From contig MEOH01000013.1 of NCBI GenBank assembly GCA_001769535.1, positions 79,838 to 143,837 on the forward strand: DNA of 64,000 bases, written 5' to 3'. Position numbers and translations under genes: made by a program. Below the pieces are notes generated by a model, which saw only the letters and a program-made list of their open reading frames with translations, searched no databases and was not told the origin of the DNA. Position 1 is the first letter of the stretch. Each line of letters begins with the position of its first letter. The stretch comes from Bacteroidetes bacterium GWF2_38_335. Its GTDB lineage: Bacteria > Bacteroidota > Bacteroidia > Bacteroidales > GWF2-38-335. Positions 35,747 through 42,383 of this stretch are shown here, one piece after another.

Positions 35747-36883
35747 CTATTTCTTTTCCAATATCTCAAACGCTGCATCAAGGTATAAAAAAGCATCATT
35801 GGTATGCGCGCCTGTTCGTTCCTCAGAACGTTTATGTCCGAGTCGCACCACCACAGCATTTTTCTGGGGAATCACAAAAATATACTGTCCTAAAATTCCG
35901 CGTGCATAAGGAATATCCATGCCCTTATAATTAATGATCCACCACTGGTAGCCGTAATAATCCACCTTTTTTCCATCTTCATCAACGAGGTATGAGGCAG
36001 AAGATAATGCATCCTCAAGATATTTTTCGGAAATAATCTGTTTTGTTCCCCATTTGCCTTTATTCAGACAAAGTTGTCCGATTCGTGCAAAATCACGGGC
36101 ATTGGAGTTAAAGCAGCAATAAGCTTTTTCCATGCCTTCTTCCTCATCAAGACACCAAAGGGCATCGTTCTTTGCTCCAAGTGGCTTCCACAATTTTTCT
36201 GACGCGTAATCAGAAATATTTTTTCCTGTTGCTTTTTGCAAAATCATAGCCAGAAGTTGCGTGTTTCCGCTGAGATATTTAAAAACTTTTCCGGGTTCCT
36301 CTATTGTTTTTAGTTTTAGAATCAACCTGTCAAGATTGGTTCCGTAATAAGCTTTGGTGGTTACTGAAAACGGACTGCCGTAGCTTTCATTCCAATTGAG
36401 ACCTGAGCTCATGGTCAGCACATCTTTAATGGTTAAATCTGCATTTTTACCTTTAGAAAACTCAGGAATAAACTCACCCACTTTTTGATCAACGCTTTTA
36501 ATTTTTCCTTCATCAATTGCAATTCCCACCAGCAATGCGACAATACTTTTAGCGGCAGAAAATGAATTGGTAAGTGAATTTTCATCGTATCCCATCCAGT
36601 ATTTTTCATATTTGATGCTGCCGTTTTCAAGAATCAGAAAGGCAATGGTTTCGAATTCCTTAAACTTATCAAGTTTTTCTGAAGATATTTCCTTTGTATT
36701 ATAATCAATGGTATTCATCCATATTTGTTCTTCTCCTGCCCTGATAACCCTATTGTCAAATATTTTATAGTCATCAATGCCTGCGTTGGTATATTTTATT
36801 GCTTTGGTGAGATAGGTGCAAGAAAATAAAATGAGTGAAATCAGAACAGATAATATTGCGGCTTTGGTAATTATGTATTTCAT
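35747..36883 (-). CDS. Serine hydrolase, class C beta-lactamase family
   Basis: A 378-residue lipoprotein-like serine hydrolase: signal ending LILFSC, then the body. The S-x-x-K active-site motif SAAKSIVALLVG is near residue 110. The Tyr-containing second motif is in FKYLSGNTQLLAMILQ, and GHKR near the C-terminus replaces the usual K-T/S-G. These features place it with the penicillin-binding-protein-like/esterase EstB branch and not with true beta-lactamases. It probably acts on envelope substrates such as peptidoglycan peptides or esters. It diverges from the promoter of the eight-gene small-protein operon. Confidence 0.87.
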   Translation of the reverse strand: MKYIITKAAILSVLISLILFSCTYLTKAIKYTNAGIDDYKIFDNRVIRAGEEQIWMNTIDYNTKEISSEKLDKFKEFETIAFLILENGSIKYEKYWMGYDENSLTNSFSAAKSIVALLVGIAIDEGKIKSVDQKVGEFIPEFSKGKNADLTIKDVLTMSSGLNWNESYGSPFSVTTKAYYGTNLDRLILKLKTIEEPGKVFKYLSGNTQLLAMILQKATGKNISDYASEKLWKPLGAKNDALWCLDEEEGMEKAYCCFNSNARDFARIGQLCLNKGKWGTKQIISEKYLEDALSSASYLVDEDGKKVDYYGYQWWIINYKGMDIPYARGILGQYIFVIPQKNAVVVRLGHKRSEERTGAHTNDAFLYLDAAFEILEKK

Positions 36884-36990: not shown

Positions 36991-36998
36991 TAAATTTG
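36991..36998 (+). promoter_or_regulatory. -7 promoter element of the Cys-Tyr small-protein operon
   Basis: TAAATTTG, an exact TAnnTTTG match, lies 16 bp before the ATG of the first gene at 37015. No well-spaced -33 box is evident (TTG at 36963-36965 is 25 bp away). No other promoter-like element is obvious until 39480, so the eight genes may form one transcript. Confidence 0.5.
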
Positions 36999-37014: not shown

Positions 37015-37443
37015 ATGAAACACCGGATGATATTATTTAAACTTCATATTTATTCACTGATATTCAATATTATTCATCAAATATTTAAACTGGTTTTTCA
37101 CCTTTACCCCTCAAAAAATATCAGAAATAAAATGATTTCTGCCGGAATTGTTATTATTACAATTAATTCAGCTCTGGTATCCTGCAATAAAAGCTCATCT
37201 GATTCAACTGATAATGACCCGAAGAATGGAAAAAAAATAGCGAAAGGAGAAGCCGGAGACATCAGTCGTAAAATAAGTAAAATTGTTTTTCTAAATATTA
37301 TTCAGACATTTACAAATAGAGAGGCCGTCAATTCGATCCGTGATTTACCATTGGAAGAAATAGAAGGTACAATAACCAACCGGCCCGATTCAACGTATAT
37401 TATAAAATGTTACGTTCCCATTGATCCTGAAACTGATTTTTAA
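37015..37443 (+). CDS. Cys-Tyr family small lipoprotein-like protein, copy 1
   Basis: A 142-residue protein, the first and second-longest of eight tandem relatives. It has an N-terminal ~30-residue aromatic and hydrophobic leader. A basic stretch (NIRNK) follows, then a second hydrophobic segment ending AGIVIITINSALVSC, which looks like a lipobox. The mature part is Lys/Asp/Ser-rich and polar (SSDSTDNDPKNGKK) and ends with IIKCYVPIDPETDF. The Cys-Tyr pair near the end corresponds to the motif just after the membrane segment in its neighbours. Function unknown. The next gene starts 3 bp after its stop (TTG). Confidence 0.7.
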   Translation: MKHRMILFKLHIYSLIFNIIHQIFKLVFHLYPSKNIRNKMISAGIVIITINSALVSCNKSSSDSTDNDPKNGKKIAKGEAGDISRKISKIVFLNIIQTFTNREAVNSIRDLPLEEIEGTITNRPDSTYIIKCYVPIDPETDF

Positions 37444-37446
37444 CTT

Positions 37447-37680
37447 TTGAAAAAGAAACTAAATATAAAACTTATGTATTTCAGACTTATAACTTATAAG
37501 ATTCTGAAAAACATTCCATTTCTGAAATCGAGATTTTCCATAAGGTACTTACTAACCGGAATGATTATATTATCACTGACAGCAACAATGCAGAACTGCC
37601 GGTCAAAAAAGGTTATTCATTGCTATGTTGGTCCGCCAGAAAATTATGAACAAGCTGACAGTCTGAAACAAAATGAGTAA
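37447..37680 (+). CDS. Cys-Tyr family small protein, copy 2 (TTG start)
   Basis: A 77-residue protein with a TTG start. The start is supported by its paralogue, copy 6: both have exactly 38 residues from the first Met to the conserved LTG, and align without gaps (MKKKLNIKL with MKKNFKIFL; then RYLLTG with KFILTG). After the second hydrophobic segment come NCRSKK and HCYVGPPENYEQADS, which hold the Cys-Tyr, Pro and Tyr-Glu positions of the family. An alternative ATG at 37474 would shorten the leader by nine residues. Overlaps copy 3 by 8 bp. Confidence 0.7.
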   Translation: MKKKLNIKLMYFRLITYKILKNIPFLKSRFSIRYLLTGMIILSLTATMQNCRSKKVIHCYVGPPENYEQADSLKQNE

Positions 37681-37969
37681 AATAAAACTATTTATATTCT
37701 TGATTCTCTTCTTTTTAACTGATACTATAAATATATTATCTGGTAAAAAGATATTCGCCAAAAGAAAAATGCTTCTTGGCGCTGTCATTATTGCATTGAT
37801 AAACAGCTCAACAGGGTGTGAAAACAAAAAGACCGGACCCCAAAAAACTTGTTACGATACAGTCCGTACAACTGAATATAATACTTTTTCATCTGATACA
37901 GCTATCATCGATACTTTATTAGAAAAAGGCATTCAAACAGTTTTAAAAAAGCAGGTAAAAACAAAATGA
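37673..37969 (+). CDS. Cys-Tyr family small protein, copy 3
   Basis: A 98-residue protein. N-terminal leader of ~23 hydrophobic residues, then GKKIFAKRKMLLGAVIIAL, a second hydrophobic segment ending SSTGC (lipobox-like). A polar Lys-rich spacer leads to KTCYDTVRTTEYNTF, the Cys-Tyr motif with a following Tyr. The tail (SSDTAIIDTLLEKGIQTVLK) is longer and more helical than in most copies. Overlaps copy 2 by 8 bp and copy 4 by 4 bp (ATGA), suggesting translational coupling. No known function. Confidence 0.7.
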   Translation: MSKIKLFIFLILFFLTDTINILSGKKIFAKRKMLLGAVIIALINSSTGCENKKTGPQKTCYDTVRTTEYNTFSSDTAIIDTLLEKGIQTVLKKQVKTK

Positions 37970-38193
37970 AAAAGCATTTAAAAATATTGCAATTTCATTT
38001 ACTTTCTGTTGTTAGTAACTTAACCAGTAACAGAAGTTTGTCAAGAAAAAAAATATTGCTTGGCATTGCAATAATTGGATTTTCAGGTTGCAATGAAAAA
38101 AATGAAGAAAGAAGAACTATGTGTTATGAACCGGTTCCTGATACCACTTATGAAATAACAGACACTTTTAATACTGATACTATTGAAAATTAA
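37966..38193 (+). CDS. Cys-Tyr family small protein, copy 4
   Basis: A 75-residue protein, the shortest. Leader of ~24 residues, SRKKILLGIAIIGFSGC (basic pair, hydrophobic core, lipobox-like SGC), a charged spacer NEKNEERR, then TMCYEPVPDTTYEITDTFN. The motif C-Y-x(2)-V-P with a following Y-E-I-x-D is well kept. The tail ends in Asp/Thr/Glu. It overlaps copy 3 by 4 bp (ATGA) and copy 5 by 11 bp. No known function. Confidence 0.7.
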   Translation: MKKHLKILQFHLLSVVSNLTSNRSLSRKKILLGIAIIGFSGCNEKNEERRTMCYEPVPDTTYEITDTFNTDTIEN

Positions 38194-38431
38194 ATTAGTA
38201 ATATACAAACTTGCCTATAAGATTGTTTCTCTGATTCATGCAATCAGTTTCAGGAAAATTTTTACCGCAAAAAAAATATTTATCGGATTAGCCATTTTAA
38301 GCATTTCAAATTCTTTTAGCTCATGCAGGACTCACAATCCACCAAGAACTTGCTATAAACCGGCTATACCTGATTATGAAATAAGTGATACCACAAAAAA
38401 CCCGGCACCTGAAAATGAAGAAAAACTTTAA
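38183..38431 (+). CDS. Cys-Tyr family small protein, copy 5 (TTG start)
   Basis: An 82-residue protein with a TTG start. The paralogue copy 7 aligns from its own ATG without gaps for 31 residues (MKIKLVIYKLAYKIV against MKLKFIFYKALYFLV; then FRKIFTAKKI against FRKLFTGKKI), which supports the TTG start. A second hydrophobic segment ends NSFSSC. Then RTHNPPRTCYKPAIPDYEIS, the clearest form of the motif T-C-Y-x-P with a later D-Y-E-I-S-D. The tail is Pro/Glu-rich. It overlaps copy 4 by 11 bp and copy 6 by 17 bp. Confidence 0.72.
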   Translation: MKIKLVIYKLAYKIVSLIHAISFRKIFTAKKIFIGLAILSISNSFSSCRTHNPPRTCYKPAIPDYEISDTTKNPAPENEEKL

Positions 38432-38648
38432 AATATTCCTTTTAATTTTAAGGATGAATACATACCGGGTAATCAGTTTTTTACCTGTTTTCAAAAATAA
38501 GTTCAGAGCAAAATTCATTTTAACCGGAATATTAATATTATCACTTTCTGCAACCATGGAAAGTTGCAGATCAAAAAAGAAAAAAACCCTTTGCTATTAT
38601 CTTCATGTTCAGGAAATCGAAATCATTGATGAAAAAACAGGACTATGA
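38415..38648 (+). CDS. Cys-Tyr family small protein, copy 6
   Basis: A 77-residue protein using the ATG at 38415. An upstream in-frame ATG at 38385 would make it longer but would break the gapless alignment with copy 2. Leader MKKNFKIFLLILRM, basic spacer, FILTGILILSLSATMESC, then RSKKKKTLCYYLHVQEIEII. Here the Cys-Tyr is followed by a second Tyr and lacks the proline, unlike its relatives. The tail is short, ending DEKTGL. It overlaps copy 5 by 17 bp and copy 7 by 4 bp (ATGA). Confidence 0.7.
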   Translation: MKKNFKIFLLILRMNTYRVISFLPVFKNKFRAKFILTGILILSLSATMESCRSKKKKTLCYYLHVQEIEIIDEKTGL

Positions 38649-38932
38649 AACTGAAATTCATTTTTTATAAAGCGTTGTATTTTCTGGTATCAGGAGTAAA
38701 TCTGATGACATTCAGAAAACTTTTTACCGGTAAAAAAATCATGCTGGGCATTATGGTTATTGGTATTGCAAACGCCATGAGTTCGTGCAAACACTTTATT
38801 CCGCACCGCACCTGTTACGACGTTGCCCCAACCAACGGTTATGAGCAAGCCGATTCGAACAAAACCATAGTAAACCCGCAGGATACAACCAGGGAAATTC
38901 TCTGTTACAAAACCACAACCCCACAAGAATAA
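38645..38932 (+). CDS. Cys-Tyr family small protein, copy 7
   Basis: A 95-residue protein with leader MKLKFIFYKALYFLV, basic FRKLFTGKKI, hydrophobic MLGIMVIGIANAMSSC and then KHFIPHRTCYDVAPTNGYEQ. A second Cys-Tyr (EILCYKTTTPQE) occurs near the C-terminus, so it carries two copies of the motif. Overlaps copy 6 by 4 bp (ATGA) and is followed after one base by copy 8. No known function. Confidence 0.72.
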   Translation: MKLKFIFYKALYFLVSGVNLMTFRKLFTGKKIMLGIMVIGIANAMSSCKHFIPHRTCYDVAPTNGYEQADSNKTIVNPQDTTREILCYKTTTPQE

Positions 38933-38933
38933 T

Positions 38934-39479
38934 ATGGATAAGGAAAAACTCATCACACCGGTTATATTAATTGCCTTAGGCATTGCTTTTATTTACGCAT
39001 GTTTTATGGTAGCTGTCAGGAAAGACAACAAAGCAGCCATTTCAAGAAAACTGAAGATCGGAGCGGCAATTATCTCGCTCACGGCTTTCATTAATACGGG
39101 AAGCTATGCTCAAAAGACCTGTTATAAGCCCGCGATTGTTGAGAAACCAAATGTCTTTATCACCAATTCGGGAAATGAAAATAATGTGCGCACCATCAGT
39201 AATGGAGGAACTTTATTAGGGAATCTAAATAATTACAATTCAGATTCGAAATATCATGTAACCATTTGTGATACAACAGGTAAAATAATTGATAAAAACC
39301 AAATGGAAATTGATTCTCTAAATACCTGGAGCATTTCCTTTGAAAACCGCACTCCGGGCAAATACATCCTGAAATTTTATGAGGCCGGATCGGGTAAATC
39401 GGAAGATGAATTAATTTACGAAACGTATATTAAAGTTTATGATCGCCGGGATGAACGGTATAATACGTGTTATTTTTGA
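38934..39479 (+). CDS. Cys-Tyr family protein, copy 8, with C-terminal beta domain
   Basis: A 181-residue protein, the last and longest of the array. Its leader has a first hydrophobic segment (PVILIALGIAFIYACFM), a basic spacer KDNKAAISRKLK and a second segment IGAAIISLTAFINTGSYA. The second segment lacks a lipobox Cys and ends in a signal-peptidase-I-like site. The mature part starts QKTCYKPAIVEKPNVFITN, so the Cys-Tyr motif sits at the very start. The remaining ~110 residues form a beta-sandwich-like domain (HVTICDTTGKIIDKNQMEI, TPGKYILKFYEAG) resembling T9SS-type folds, ending NTCYF, another Cys-Tyr. No known function. Confidence 0.72.
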   Translation: MDKEKLITPVILIALGIAFIYACFMVAVRKDNKAAISRKLKIGAAIISLTAFINTGSYAQKTCYKPAIVEKPNVFITNSGNENNVRTISNGGTLLGNLNNYNSDSKYHVTICDTTGKIIDKNQMEIDSLNTWSISFENRTPGKYILKFYEAGSGKSEDELIYETYIKVYDRRDERYNTCYF

Positions 39480-39480
39480 T

Positions 39481-39515
39481 GATGTATGATGTATGATGTA
39501 TGATGGATGATGTAT
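39481..39515. repeat. 7-bp tandem repeat
   Basis: Five units of GATGTAT (unit 4 reads GATGGAT) follow directly after the stop codon of copy 8. No gene is inside. Confidence 0.9.
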
Positions 39516-39519
39516 TTTT

Positions 39520-39575
39520 CCCATAACTTATAACCCATAACTTATAACCCATAACTTATAACTCATAACTTATAA
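39520..39575. repeat. 14-bp tandem repeat overlapping a stop codon
   Basis: Four units of CCCATAACTTATAA (last unit starts CTC) are head to tail. The last unit contains the TAA stop (39570-39572, minus strand) of the S9 peptidase gene. Confidence 0.9.
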
Positions 39576-42383
39576 TCCATATCCCGTTTCCACCCCCTTT
39601 TTAACAGCAGGCACGCCTGATTTCATCCAGACCGGAGCGGGTTTGTCTTTCAAATAATGATCGAAAAATTGTTGCATTCTTATTGAAAGATCAACGCATT
39701 GCGCCCTGTTTACCAGATTATGTTCTTCGTTGTTGTAATTAAGCAGCCAAACCGGTTTGTTTAATCGCCTCATGGCTGTAAAAAGTTCAATTCCCTGAGT
39801 CCATGGTACGGCCCCGTCGTTGTCGTTGTTCATCATTAATAAAGGTGTGTTAATCCGGTCGGCATAAAAAACCGGTGAATTCTCAATGTACAACTGTGGT
39901 TTTTCCCACAAGGTGGCTCCGATGCGGCTTTGGGTGCATTCATACTGAAACATTCTGCTTACACCTGACTCATATCTTAATCCGCCGTATGCACTGGTCA
40001 TATTGGTCACTGCTGCTCCGGCCATTGCGCAGGCAAACATATCGGTGCGTGTCACGAGATAGGCAATCTGGTAGCCACCCCAGCTTTGGCCCTGCAAACC
40101 AATTTTATCCGGATCAATATATTTTCGTTTACACATATCAACGGTACCGCTTACAATATCGTCGTAGGCACTTTGACCGGGGAAACCGGTTTTGTAGGTA
40201 ATATCCGGAACAAAGACCATGTATCCGTTGCTGGTATAATAAGCCGGAGTAATGATTGATCTGCTCGGGTGCGGTGGATTGTGGTTGTTAAGTTCATCCG
40301 AATTGCGTTCATAAAAATAAACTATCATCGGATATTTATTGGCAGGATGAAAGTCTTCGGGTTTATATAGCAATCCTTGAAGCATTTCACCCGAGAAACT
40401 TTTCCATTTCACCAGTTCAACCGAGCCCCATAGGTAATCCTGTTGCTGAGGGTTTGTATTAGTTAACTTCACTGAATCTGTGAAATCGAAATTACTTGTC
40501 CATAAATCGGGATATTCAATAAATGATTCCCTTTGCCAAATAAGCTTATTGGCTTTTTTTGCTTTTTTCAGTCCGGTAAAATCAAAATTGCCTTTAACGA
40601 GCAGTTTAATTCGTCCGGCATCCTGATAATTAAGAAGATAAAAGCCATCTTCTTTTGTTTCTTCATTAAAACCCGAAAGAAGGACTTTGTCAAGTTCGGC
40701 GTATCTTTTTTCAGGATCAGGCCACACATATTCAAATCTTGTTTTGGATTCTCTTCCCTTGCCCAGAGTAATATTTTCGGGACTTGTTTTGCCTGAGACA
40801 TCAAATTTCCACACATCGTACCGGTCATAAATGAGCACAAATTTTTCATCTTCGGTCCAGCTTACAATCTCATATGGATAAGGAATTCCGGGCATATCAT
40901 ACATTTCGTTGTAAAAATTTACCTTTAAATTTTTAGTCAGCGAAATTGTTTTCTCATCCCTGATATTATAAAGATACCATGAACTGTCGGCAGGATTATA
41001 ATATATCATTGTTTTTGCTTCGGGCGACAGGTGAACCGGGTACCCCTGCTTTTTAAGAATCATTTTGCGTGAACCATCTTCAATATTTACCAAATAAACA
41101 TCATTGTATGAAGGGGTTTCCCATGAAGACAGCATATCATACTCATCTCCCGCGAACCCTAACGCCAATGGATTTTCGCGTTTCTTTTCGATACTGATTT
41201 CAGATACAATCTTGTCAGCCAGCTGCACCATATTTAACTTTTTCAAGTGGATTACAACCTGATATCCCCTGCTTTTTTCCTTTTCAACTTCTTTTACTTG
41301 TTGCGACTGGAGTTTCTTATCCTGCCAGTTCCACACATCAACTTTTACTTTTTCGTCATCGAGCAGGGTATCCTTTATTTCCTTTTCAGGTTTTGGAGAA
41401 GTCTTGAAATAAAGTTCATTTCCATCATTTGAGAAAAAAGGAGCCGATTTTTCATTTACACACCAATCTGAGGGCATATTTTTAGTCAGGGTATCAGCAA
41501 CAGACAATACACCTGATTTAGCAGACCAGTAGAACAGACTGTATATTTTAATTTTCGCAGTATCTGCTGAAAACAAAAAAGCAATCTGATTGCCAGCCTT
41601 GTCAATAGTGAGATCTTTAGCCTTACCGTTTCTTGTTAATATGTTTTTTTCAGTTTTATCAAGGGTATTAAACACATAGACACAAGCGGTATCAATGGAA
41701 TCCTTTTTATTTGAAATATAGCAGATTAGATTACCCTCTTCAGAAATCAGATATTCATTAATACTTTCCTTTTCAAATTTTTCATTGGTAAGCGGATTAT
41801 AAATCACCATTTTAGTACCCTCATTATCTTTTTTCTTTTTTTCTTTCTTCTCCTCTTTAGGCTTTTCAGTAGTTTTAAGCGTATCAGATTTAGAAGTGGT
41901 ATCTTTTTTTTCCAATTCCTTTTCGAGATGATAAACCATCCAGTTTCCTGATTCTTTTGGCAGTTTGAAAGATTTAACCCTTTCGGTTTTCAGTATTTTT
42001 TTATCAGCAAAATAATATATTGCCATGGAATCCTTAGGCATTTTTTCCTTTTTAACTTTATCAAGCTTTGCCTTTCTTACTGAATCTTCGAACGGAACAA
42101 TTGAAAACACAGCAAAATCAGAGTTTGCAGATATCACTGCATTTTTAGCACGGGCAATTGAATCCGTTGATTTTGTGAGTATATCATAAAAATACAGGTA
42201 TCCATCACCTTTTTGGGGATATATTTCCCATGAAACAATATTTCCGTTATTTGAAATCTGCGATTTCTTTAAATTCTTCCAACTATCATAAACAGAATGA
42301 TCCAGAGGCTTTTTGCCAAGGGATTGTGAAAAAACAGCAAAAGCAAAAAGCAGAGCTGATAAGGTCCAAAAAAATCTGGTCAT
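39570..42383 (-). CDS. S9 family prolyl oligopeptidase (secreted)
   Basis: A 937-residue peptidase with signal peptide MTRFFWTLSALLFAFAVFSQ. The N-terminal ~600 residues form the beta-propeller with low-complexity Lys/Glu-rich linkers (about 165-190). The alpha/beta hydrolase domain contains the nucleophile GLQGQSWGGYQIAYLV (Ser about 767), the acid in MMNNDNDGAVPW (about 853) and the His in NNEEHNLVNRAQ (about 887). It cleaves peptides with dipeptidyl- or oligopeptidase specificity, probably in the periplasm, and may help take up protein-derived peptides. No sorting domain. The tandem repeat at its 3' end touches its stop codon. Confidence 0.93.
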   Translation of the reverse strand: MTRFFWTLSALLFAFAVFSQSLGKKPLDHSVYDSWKNLKKSQISNNGNIVSWEIYPQKGDGYLYFYDILTKSTDSIARAKNAVISANSDFAVFSIVPFEDSVRKAKLDKVKKEKMPKDSMAIYYFADKKILKTERVKSFKLPKESGNWMVYHLEKELEKKDTTSKSDTLKTTEKPKEEKKEKKKKDNEGTKMVIYNPLTNEKFEKESINEYLISEEGNLICYISNKKDSIDTACVYVFNTLDKTEKNILTRNGKAKDLTIDKAGNQIAFLFSADTAKIKIYSLFYWSAKSGVLSVADTLTKNMPSDWCVNEKSAPFFSNDGNELYFKTSPKPEKEIKDTLLDDEKVKVDVWNWQDKKLQSQQVKEVEKEKSRGYQVVIHLKKLNMVQLADKIVSEISIEKKRENPLALGFAGDEYDMLSSWETPSYNDVYLVNIEDGSRKMILKKQGYPVHLSPEAKTMIYYNPADSSWYLYNIRDEKTISLTKNLKVNFYNEMYDMPGIPYPYEIVSWTEDEKFVLIYDRYDVWKFDVSGKTSPENITLGKGRESKTRFEYVWPDPEKRYAELDKVLLSGFNEETKEDGFYLLNYQDAGRIKLLVKGNFDFTGLKKAKKANKLIWQRESFIEYPDLWTSNFDFTDSVKLTNTNPQQQDYLWGSVELVKWKSFSGEMLQGLLYKPEDFHPANKYPMIVYFYERNSDELNNHNPPHPSRSIITPAYYTSNGYMVFVPDITYKTGFPGQSAYDDIVSGTVDMCKRKYIDPDKIGLQGQSWGGYQIAYLVTRTDMFACAMAGAAVTNMTSAYGGLRYESGVSRMFQYECTQSRIGATLWEKPQLYIENSPVFYADRINTPLLMMNNDNDGAVPWTQGIELFTAMRRLNKPVWLLNYNNEEHNLVNRAQCVDLSIRMQQFFDHYLKDKPAPVWMKSGVPAVKKGVETGYGL

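Follow-up and report, generated by a model that had tools for sequence, protein, structure and literature searches.

The pairing of a radical S-adenosylmethionine (SAM) enzyme with a leader-bearing, often lipoprotein-like substrate is of a known kind, while substrates that are scattered over the genome, or that belong to the TonB type, are unusual. Here, we describe an array of eight small genes at positions 37015-39479 of a 64,000-nucleotide stretch of DNA from Bacteroidetes bacterium GWF2_38_335 (contig MEOH01000013.1, positions 79,838 to 143,837), the whole of which we call the window. The encoded proteins share an N-terminal leader and a Cys-Tyr motif, and we regard the array as, most likely, an orphan operon that encodes substrates of a distributed radical-SAM protein-modification system. 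The array is real, and the system is larger than an earlier reading of the same DNA (the original prediction) had stated. Genomes, contigs and loci are labelled G, C and L, respectively, and the contig of the window is C13.

Comparison with described systems

In the TIGR04133/TIGR04134 system, a radical-SAM/SPASM enzyme is found beside short Bacteroidota lipoproteins that have a Tyr/Pro motif soon behind the lipobox. The original prediction had likened the array to this ‘radical SAM-associated putative lipoprotein’ group, and the logic is the same, that is, an enzyme with a short lipoprotein carrying a Tyr-containing motif behind its lipobox. TIGR04134-type lipoproteins also gave the best, and only, matches to our main family profile (A4, described below) among control sequences, all of them faint (E 0.18 to 0.51). 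The likeness did not hold against the models themselves. TIGR04134 (cut-off 39.8 bits) gave no match for the eight proteins at E≤10, and six relatives scanned at E≤0.1 likewise had none. Of four enzymes, two scored 54.3 and 53.2 bits against TIGR04133, whose cut-off is 425, and for the other two this model was not among the best 25 listed. Furthermore, TIGR04134 loci of other genomes have another enzyme signature, TLxCNxxCxHCGSDC, and another core, like YGxPxAx[YF], both seen among the listed loci L153-L156, L158 and L160. As the cut-offs were not reached, we rejected membership of the TIGR04133/TIGR04134 system, which we consider very improbable. TIGR04134 scores above its cut-off at three places in the genome of the window (C26:146988-147876, two in tandem, and C2:217605-217985), so two radical-SAM-linked lipoprotein families coexist there.

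A second comparison is with the DAG-RiPPs, a type of ribosomally synthesized and post-translationally modified peptide (RiPP). For these, the core is reported to be modified in the cytoplasm by MNIO enzymes (ChrH/DybH) with lipoprotein processing afterwards, and the substrates range from peptides to proteins of >30 kDa with one common short motif (PMC12636315). Both the order of modification and export that we propose and the span from peptide to protein resemble what is reported there; the difference is that those systems use an MNIO enzyme and a C-terminal CPxCGxG motif (PMC12636315), whereas the window system would use radical SAM, in a genome with no MNIO match. A link to DUF692/MNIO genes, which the original prediction had raised, found no counterpart here: PF05114 has no match in the genome (assembly completeness 96.7%), and we rejected MNIO modification on this ground. 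Copy 3 does match NF050125, a model for a chryseobasin-related MNIO RiPP, weakly (E 0.032, 15 of 40 bits). However, none of the eight proteins has a CPxCGxG end, and the radical-SAM link held in every family-bearing genome, so that MNIO-modified lipopeptides of the DAG-RiPP type are a scarcely credible account of the array.

Our literature search, for which most subscription journals were out of reach, returned no paper that we recognized as describing the enzyme-peptide pair. The term ‘TIGR04133’ is absent from the text of the papers searched, and neither ‘lipoprotein’ nor ‘TonB’ appears in the available part of PMC10352776.

A dispersed family defined by a leader and a Cys-Tyr motif

A profile of the eight window proteins (A1) was searched in 60 genomes. 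At E≤0.001 it matched the genome of the window and 4 of the 59 others, which bears out the expectation of homologues beyond this genome. Two of these, G001 and G056, have a gene for a family protein of 179-187 residues immediately in front of a gene for a radical-SAM protein of 338-346 residues, as does contig C7 of the genome that contains the window; the neighbouring pair in G055 measures 107 and 335 residues. G001 has a further array of three genes, enzyme-free, on a different contig. Three A1 or single-copy candidates in the window's genome were set aside: the matches on C18 and C10 are ordinary lipoproteins and are absent from the A4 results, and L007, from the single-copy search, is an ordinary exported protein that was matched at its start. 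A seemingly broken copy with an internal stop on contig C169 of G001 (L148, L174) was excluded from the member counts.

The second profile, A4, was built from 37 enzyme-adjacent proteins, none of them from the genome of the window. Searched against that genome at E≤10, with 48 candidates scored, it matched 12 places, all of which are family members: the partner on C7, the eight window open reading frames (ORFs), two on C26 and one on C27. The E-values for copies 1-8, in order, were 0.0034, 1.8e-6, 1.1e-13, 1.9e-10, 8.3e-13, 1.1e-7, 4.4e-12 and 1.5e-17. With a second C27 protein of 91 residues (A1 E 0.42; ORF search E 9.4e-6; outside the A4 genome matches), the genome has 13 family genes at 5 places, one of which adjoins the enzyme.

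A leader-only profile, made from the part before the Cys-Tyr with the motif itself excluded, also finds all eight window ORFs, at E-values from 7.6e-11 to 0.007 (copy 1, 2.1e-6; copy 2, 0.007). Since A4 and the leader-only profile each recover all eight, the likeness within the array goes beyond chance. The control set comprised 3772 ORFs in 72 loci fetched by distant matches to radical SAM (60) or TIGR04134 (12). Among these ORFs the full A4 profile gave no match at E≤0.01, and the leader-only profile gave one chance match (E 0.0081), a protein without Cys-Tyr. The eight window genes belong to a real, dispersed family.

To examine the motif, we collected 2316 ORFs of the window and of related loci, training rows included, and scanned them with A4 at E≤0.01. 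Cys-Tyr is present in 79 of the 80 distinct family ORFs, the exception reading SCDSMP, and occurs up to three times per protein. The leader-only profile gave 77 distinct matches, 41 of them outside the training set, and 40 of these 41 have a Cys-Tyr beyond residue 40; when the residues there are shuffled, the mean is 4.36 and the maximum 12. Constraint on the motif, which the original prediction had made a test of its reading, is therefore present. Over 106 motifs, Thr stands before the Cys in 52%, Asp or Glu after the Tyr in 44%, and Pro is next in 29%. In an alignment of 23 rows (A3), the only invariant columns are one Gly and the Cys and Tyr of the motif, at a mean column identity of 17%; the 37 rows of A4, in which the aligner separates some motifs, have no invariant column and a mean column identity of 15%.

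A lipobox-like Cys was found in 59 of the 80 family ORFs using a loose regular expression; copy 8 is without it. The Clostridia members have no lipobox and have a C-terminal hydrophobic segment. Because the anchor Cys is confined to part of the family, the family constants are the leader and the Cys-Tyr, not a lipid anchor. The same counts bear on a simpler account, in which these are ordinary, unmodified small lipoproteins whose Cys-Tyr has a structural or metal-binding role, while the enzyme has some other target that travels with them. The frequency of the lipobox-like Cys would suit this account, as would the fact that no modification has been observed. However, adjacency to the enzyme, co-occurrence across genomes, and a motif that is near-invariant where mean column identity is 15-17% all argue against it, and we consider the simpler account improbable.

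The substrates are varied. Some are tiny peptides, some have ∼180 residues (copy 8 and the majority of single partners), and others, of ∼190-240 residues, have a TonB C-terminal domain. Pfam reported this domain (PF03544) in 9 of 15 family proteins submitted, a choice that favoured TonB-like ones (L032, L036, L037, L045, L046, L130, L132, L134 and L146), and did not report it in the eight window proteins. We inspected unlinked TonB-like members at five places (L032, L036, L037, L172 and L173). At two of them the TonB-like gene is preceded, on its own strand, by a gene for a receptor-like protein that has a CarboxypepD_reg domain, directly at L032 and with a 146-residue ORF in between at L037; none was seen close to the TonB-like member at the other three. 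The L032 and L037 receptors are presumably TonB-dependent.

Linkage to a radical-SAM enzyme across genomes

An alignment of four enzymes (A2) was used to scan named bacterial genomes, giving at least 174 relatives, of which the best 80 were kept. The 20 nearest enzyme loci among the matches listed (L041-L060; 39-61% identity) are 18 Bacteroidota records, with Paludibacter, Prevotellaceae, Dysgonamonadaceae, Alistipes and Marinilabiliaceae among them, and two Clostridia metagenome-assembled genomes (MAGs). According to the ORF table, an intact Cys-Tyr gene lies ≤85 nucleotides upstream of the enzyme in 15 of these 20 loci. L047 is truncated by the end of its contig, so that a TonB-like tail alone is visible, and L060 has no sequence upstream of the enzyme. 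The peptide genes upstream of the enzyme number from 1 to 13 per locus, with 7 at L044 by profile and 13 at L049 (11 by profile and two by eye).

Such tandem, diversified precursors with several motifs (13 genes at L049; up to three Cys-Tyr per protein) resemble RiPP arrays, and lipidated RiPPs from MNIO enzymes have been reported (PMC12636315). The products could accordingly be natural-product RiPPs, namely secreted or surface antimicrobial or signalling lipopeptides, with the tandem copies forming a diversified arsenal. We consider this unlikely. In a comparison of 24 enzyme loci, the only recurrent neighbours other than enzyme and substrate genes were a receptor-like gene, in 3 loci, and an MFS-like gene, recognized by eye, in 2; no other family reached more than 3 loci. 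In addition, the substrates include TonB C-terminal proteins of ∼190-240 residues, and they are dispersed over the genome. The three receptor-like genes near the enzyme (L031:3386-5737, L054:3-2024 and L058:5382-7991) are related to one another and resemble outer-membrane receptors, which are common in Bacteroidota.

To score co-occurrence, thresholds of E≤1e-5 for A4 and E≤1e-60 for A2 were applied, and in large genomes part of the first-pass candidates was scored. In the order-level set of 295 genomes, A4 and A2 each match 14, and these are the same 14; in the phylum-level set of 395 genomes, both match the same 2, the genome of the window and G454, which belongs to another family. At these thresholds, no genome in either set has the enzyme but not the peptides, or the reverse, and each of the 15 positive genomes has one enzyme. 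The co-occurrence with radical SAM that the original prediction proposed to look for is thus found. In G000, G001, G027, G129 and G218, some or all members are off the enzyme's contig or distant from the enzyme, although for G129 the separation may come partly from contig breaks. G070 is fragmentary, and its enzyme match spans half of the profile. The family shows the features by which RiPP precursors are recognized, a conserved leader and core with a linked modifying enzyme, the window array being linked by genome and not by neighbourhood.

Two observations concern individual enzyme loci. At L059:7869-8594, a leader like that of the Cys-Tyr family is fused in frame to the rear part of a radical-SAM enzyme; this broken fusion, which apparently arose by deletion, points to a decaying system. 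In the two Clostridia MAGs, the radical-SAM gene shifts frame by +1 at the same point (L056:1040-1080 and L057:1830-1870), just before a GGEP motif and at an in-frame CGG codon, so that the enzyme gene lies in two frames. CGG accounts for 0 of 2327 and 0 of 3070 codons in the long ORFs compared on these contigs; a further pair of AT-rich loci from Clostridia has it in 0 of 5513 and 1 of 3158 codons. Between the two MAGs, 875 of 1030 nucleotides of the enzyme gene are identical. The frameshift may be a programmed one, with CGG as a rare or unassigned codon.

The partner enzyme

The enzyme of the window's genome is a radical-SAM/SPASM protein encoded at C7:8446-9456, beside another family member. 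It has the CxxxCxxC motif and the SPASM cysteines, and scores above the Pfam cut-offs for PF04055 (79.6 bits, cut-off 29.5) and PF13186 (22.9, cut-off 21.5). PF04055 has 36 matches in the whole genome, 35 of them above cut-off and none on C13, in agreement with the original prediction that no modifying enzyme of this class lies in the window. Across 16 enzyme homologues, 11 Cys are invariant, a number that would suffice to bind the radical cluster plus two auxiliary ones. The best NCBIfam model for the four enzymes scanned is the GeoRSP model TIGR04303, at 93-117 bits against a cut-off of 400, and no export signal was seen in the enzyme by eye.

We examined an AlphaFold model of the L041 enzyme (pLDDT 91.6, pTM 0.90). 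Its twelve best structural alignments by Z score are all with peptide or protein modifiers (Z 23.2-25.9; 14-19% identity), namely SkfB (25.9), anSME (25.6), SuiB (24.6), ChlB (23.9) and 5why (23.8). The last is a sactipeptide thioether enzyme, and we take 5why/5wgg to be CteB. These enzymes resemble ours in predicted fold and in their auxiliary-cluster cysteines; they differ in the low identity, in their unrelated substrates and in that Pfam finds no RRE/PqqD domain in the C7 enzyme. In a sequence search, the best solved relative was SkfB (E 9.6e-17), followed by viperin-like enzymes. Context and predicted fold together suggest that this enzyme, of an unnamed family, modifies peptides or proteins. 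QhpD, the thioether-forming radical-SAM enzyme of quinohemoprotein amine dehydrogenase, offers a parallel to the proposed system, in that it cross-links Cys in a small protein that later works in the periplasm; QhpD has a single dedicated substrate, whereas a C7-type enzyme would have many scattered ones.

Proposed mechanism

In our explanation, the single radical-SAM/SPASM enzyme of each genome (on C7 here) would recognize the conserved N-terminal leader, because the leader is the sole other part that the substrates share. It would modify the Cys-Tyr, commonest as T-C-Y-[D/E], one or more times per protein. Given the lack of an export signal by eye and the need for reduced iron-sulfur clusters, the enzyme should act in the cytoplasm, before export. 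The substrates would then be exported via Sec, and through the lipoprotein pathway where a lipobox is present. Around three quarters of the family, going by the loose lipobox pattern, would be lipid-anchored and probably periplasm-facing, and members without a lipobox would either be cleaved or stay in place through a helix. What each protein does would depend on the variable part that follows the motif: a short tail in copies 2-7, a longer spacer in copy 1, a sandwich-like part in copy 8 and a TonB domain in others. Candidate chemistries, as far as sequence can indicate them, include a Cys-Tyr thioether, another Cys-centred cross-link, formylglycine-like oxidation and epimerization. Our first guess, held tentatively, is a Cys-centred cross-link, for example the Cys-Tyr thioether.

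The suggestion in the original prediction of precursor peptides or tiny lipoproteins tied to radical SAM survives, with many homologues and without the kinship to TIGR04134. Display is doubtful because the surface-export signal of Bacteroidota lipoproteins is acidic, and the residues directly after the lipobox Cys, as read from the sequence, are net basic in copies 2, 3, 5, 6 and 7, neutral in copy 1 and acidic in copy 4.

The orphan-operon explanation is built on computed results: the gene family, the near-invariance of Cys-Tyr, co-occurrence, adjacency and the predicted fold class of the enzyme. Several points weigh against it. The modification, its chemistry, leader recognition, lipidation and function are all inferred. 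No radical-SAM gene lies on the contig of the window array, which is tied to the enzyme by homology and co-occurrence. The 15 genomes that have both do not amount to 15 independent events, and five of them supplied profile rows (G001, G055 and G056 to both A2 and A4, the genome of the window to A2, and G027, apparently the source of L041, to A4). L054 and L058 have no adjacent Cys-Tyr gene, two copies of the L049 array have lost the motif (reading SCD and RYY), and the lone untrained leader-only match without Cys-Tyr, encoded near the C7 locus, is an ordinary lipoprotein. Viperins come next in the Z ranking (22.4), and by Foldseek E-value mouse viperin is first, SkfB third and anSME fourth; as viperin is a nucleotide enzyme, the fold alone is no proof of a peptide substrate. 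The lack of an RRE/PqqD domain in the Pfam results leaves leader recognition by the enzyme unexplained. Finally, we found no promoter element common to the five units of the window's genome; the 6- and 8-mers that they share are few, and are AT-rich or T runs.

A broader reading, which we entertain as a possibility without leaning towards it, is that one radical enzyme serves as a general modifier of envelope proteins. A dozen exported proteins encoded at unlinked places, from lipopeptides of 70 residues up to sandwich-domain and TonB-type energy-transducing proteins, would then all receive one and the same group derived from Cys-Tyr. This group might be a cross-link that is redox-active or binds metal, and it would be a protein-derived cofactor or tag rather than the product of a natural-product pathway.

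If the orphan-operon explanation is true, this is an unnamed protein-modification system with substrates from tiny peptides to TonB-type envelope proteins, adding a radical-SAM/substrate family that no scanned NCBIfam or Pfam model named. One maturase apparently serves many dispersed substrates. Orphan substrates of this sort escape enzyme-centred gene-cluster mining, and a profile of leader plus Cys-Tyr detects them. The TonB-fused members pose the question of what use an energy-transducing envelope protein has for a radical-installed modification, and the family offers small substrates for the discovery of new radical chemistry.

Layout of the array

The ORF table confirms the eight genes and their lengths (Table 1), which all lie on the plus strand and abut or overlap as described in the original prediction, with gaps of ≤3 nucleotides and overlaps of 4-17. 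In order, the junctions are a gap of 3, overlaps of 8, 4, 11, 17 and 4, and a gap of 1 nucleotide. The annotated lengths of copies 2 and 5 are set by their TTG starts, and copy 6 has an in-frame GTG further upstream that would give 87 residues if used. The genes on either side (35747-36883 and 39570-42383) run on the minus strand, which leaves the eight as a unit of their own.

Table 1. Features of the eight-gene array (positions in the window)
Feature	Position	Strand	Description
-7-like site, TAAATTTG	36991..36998	+	16 nucleotides 5′ of the copy 1 ATG; weak
Copy 1	37015..37443	+	142 residues; leader, lipobox-like VSC, long spacer, IIKCYVP near C-terminus
Copy 2	37447..37680	+	77 residues, TTG start; leader, QNC, IHCYVGPPENYEQAD; nearest copy is 6
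Copy 3	37673..37969	+	98 residues; leader, TGC, KTCYDTV
Copy 4	37966..38193	+	75 residues; leader, SGC, TMCYEPVP
Copy 5	38183..38431	+	82 residues, TTG start; leader, SSC, RTCYKPAIPDYEISD
Copy 6	38415..38648	+	77 residues; leader, ESC, TLCYYLHVQE
Copy 7	38645..38932	+	95 residues; leader, SSC, RTCYDVAP and ILCYKTT (two motifs)
Copy 8	38934..39479	+	181 residues; two-helix leader, then directly KTCYKPA; terminal NTCYF

In the alignment of the eight proteins, a hydrophobic or amphipathic N-terminus is followed by basic residues and then by a second hydrophobic segment, in which one Gly is invariant. They also share Cys-Tyr, which occurs in all eight and in the places originally described: near the C-terminus of copy 1, twice in copy 7, and both after the leader and at the C-terminus in copy 8. 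The shared architecture that had been claimed is therefore present, except that the Cys closing the second hydrophobic segment, found in copies 1-7, is missing from copy 8 (..INTGSYAQKTCY). Copies 2 and 6 are identical at 26 of 55 residues. Copy 8 is of the ∼180-residue type that elsewhere adjoins the radical-SAM gene, and is identical to an enzyme-adjacent G001 protein in 54 of 183 columns. A structure model of copy 8 gives its C-terminal part as an immunoglobulin-like sandwich, at low confidence (pLDDT 68.5, pTM 0.47), and a fold search with it returned no match at E≤0.001, the best being CopC (1.8e-3) and DUF3244 (3d33; 2.2e-3).

NCBIfam and Pfam scans of the eight proteins gave no model above its cut-off, the nearest Pfam models for copy 8 being PF18962 (22.7 bits, cut-off 27) and PF11589 (18.3 bits, cut-off 25). 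Upstream of copy 1, TAAATTTG presumably corresponds to a Bacteroidota-type -7 site; as TANNTTTG sites are about as frequent in the window as expected by chance (92 observed against 85.7 expected, both strands), it is weak evidence alone. Behind copy 8, between the convergent units, positions 39480-39575 contain the short repeats TGATGTATGATGTATGATG and CCCATAACTTATAA.

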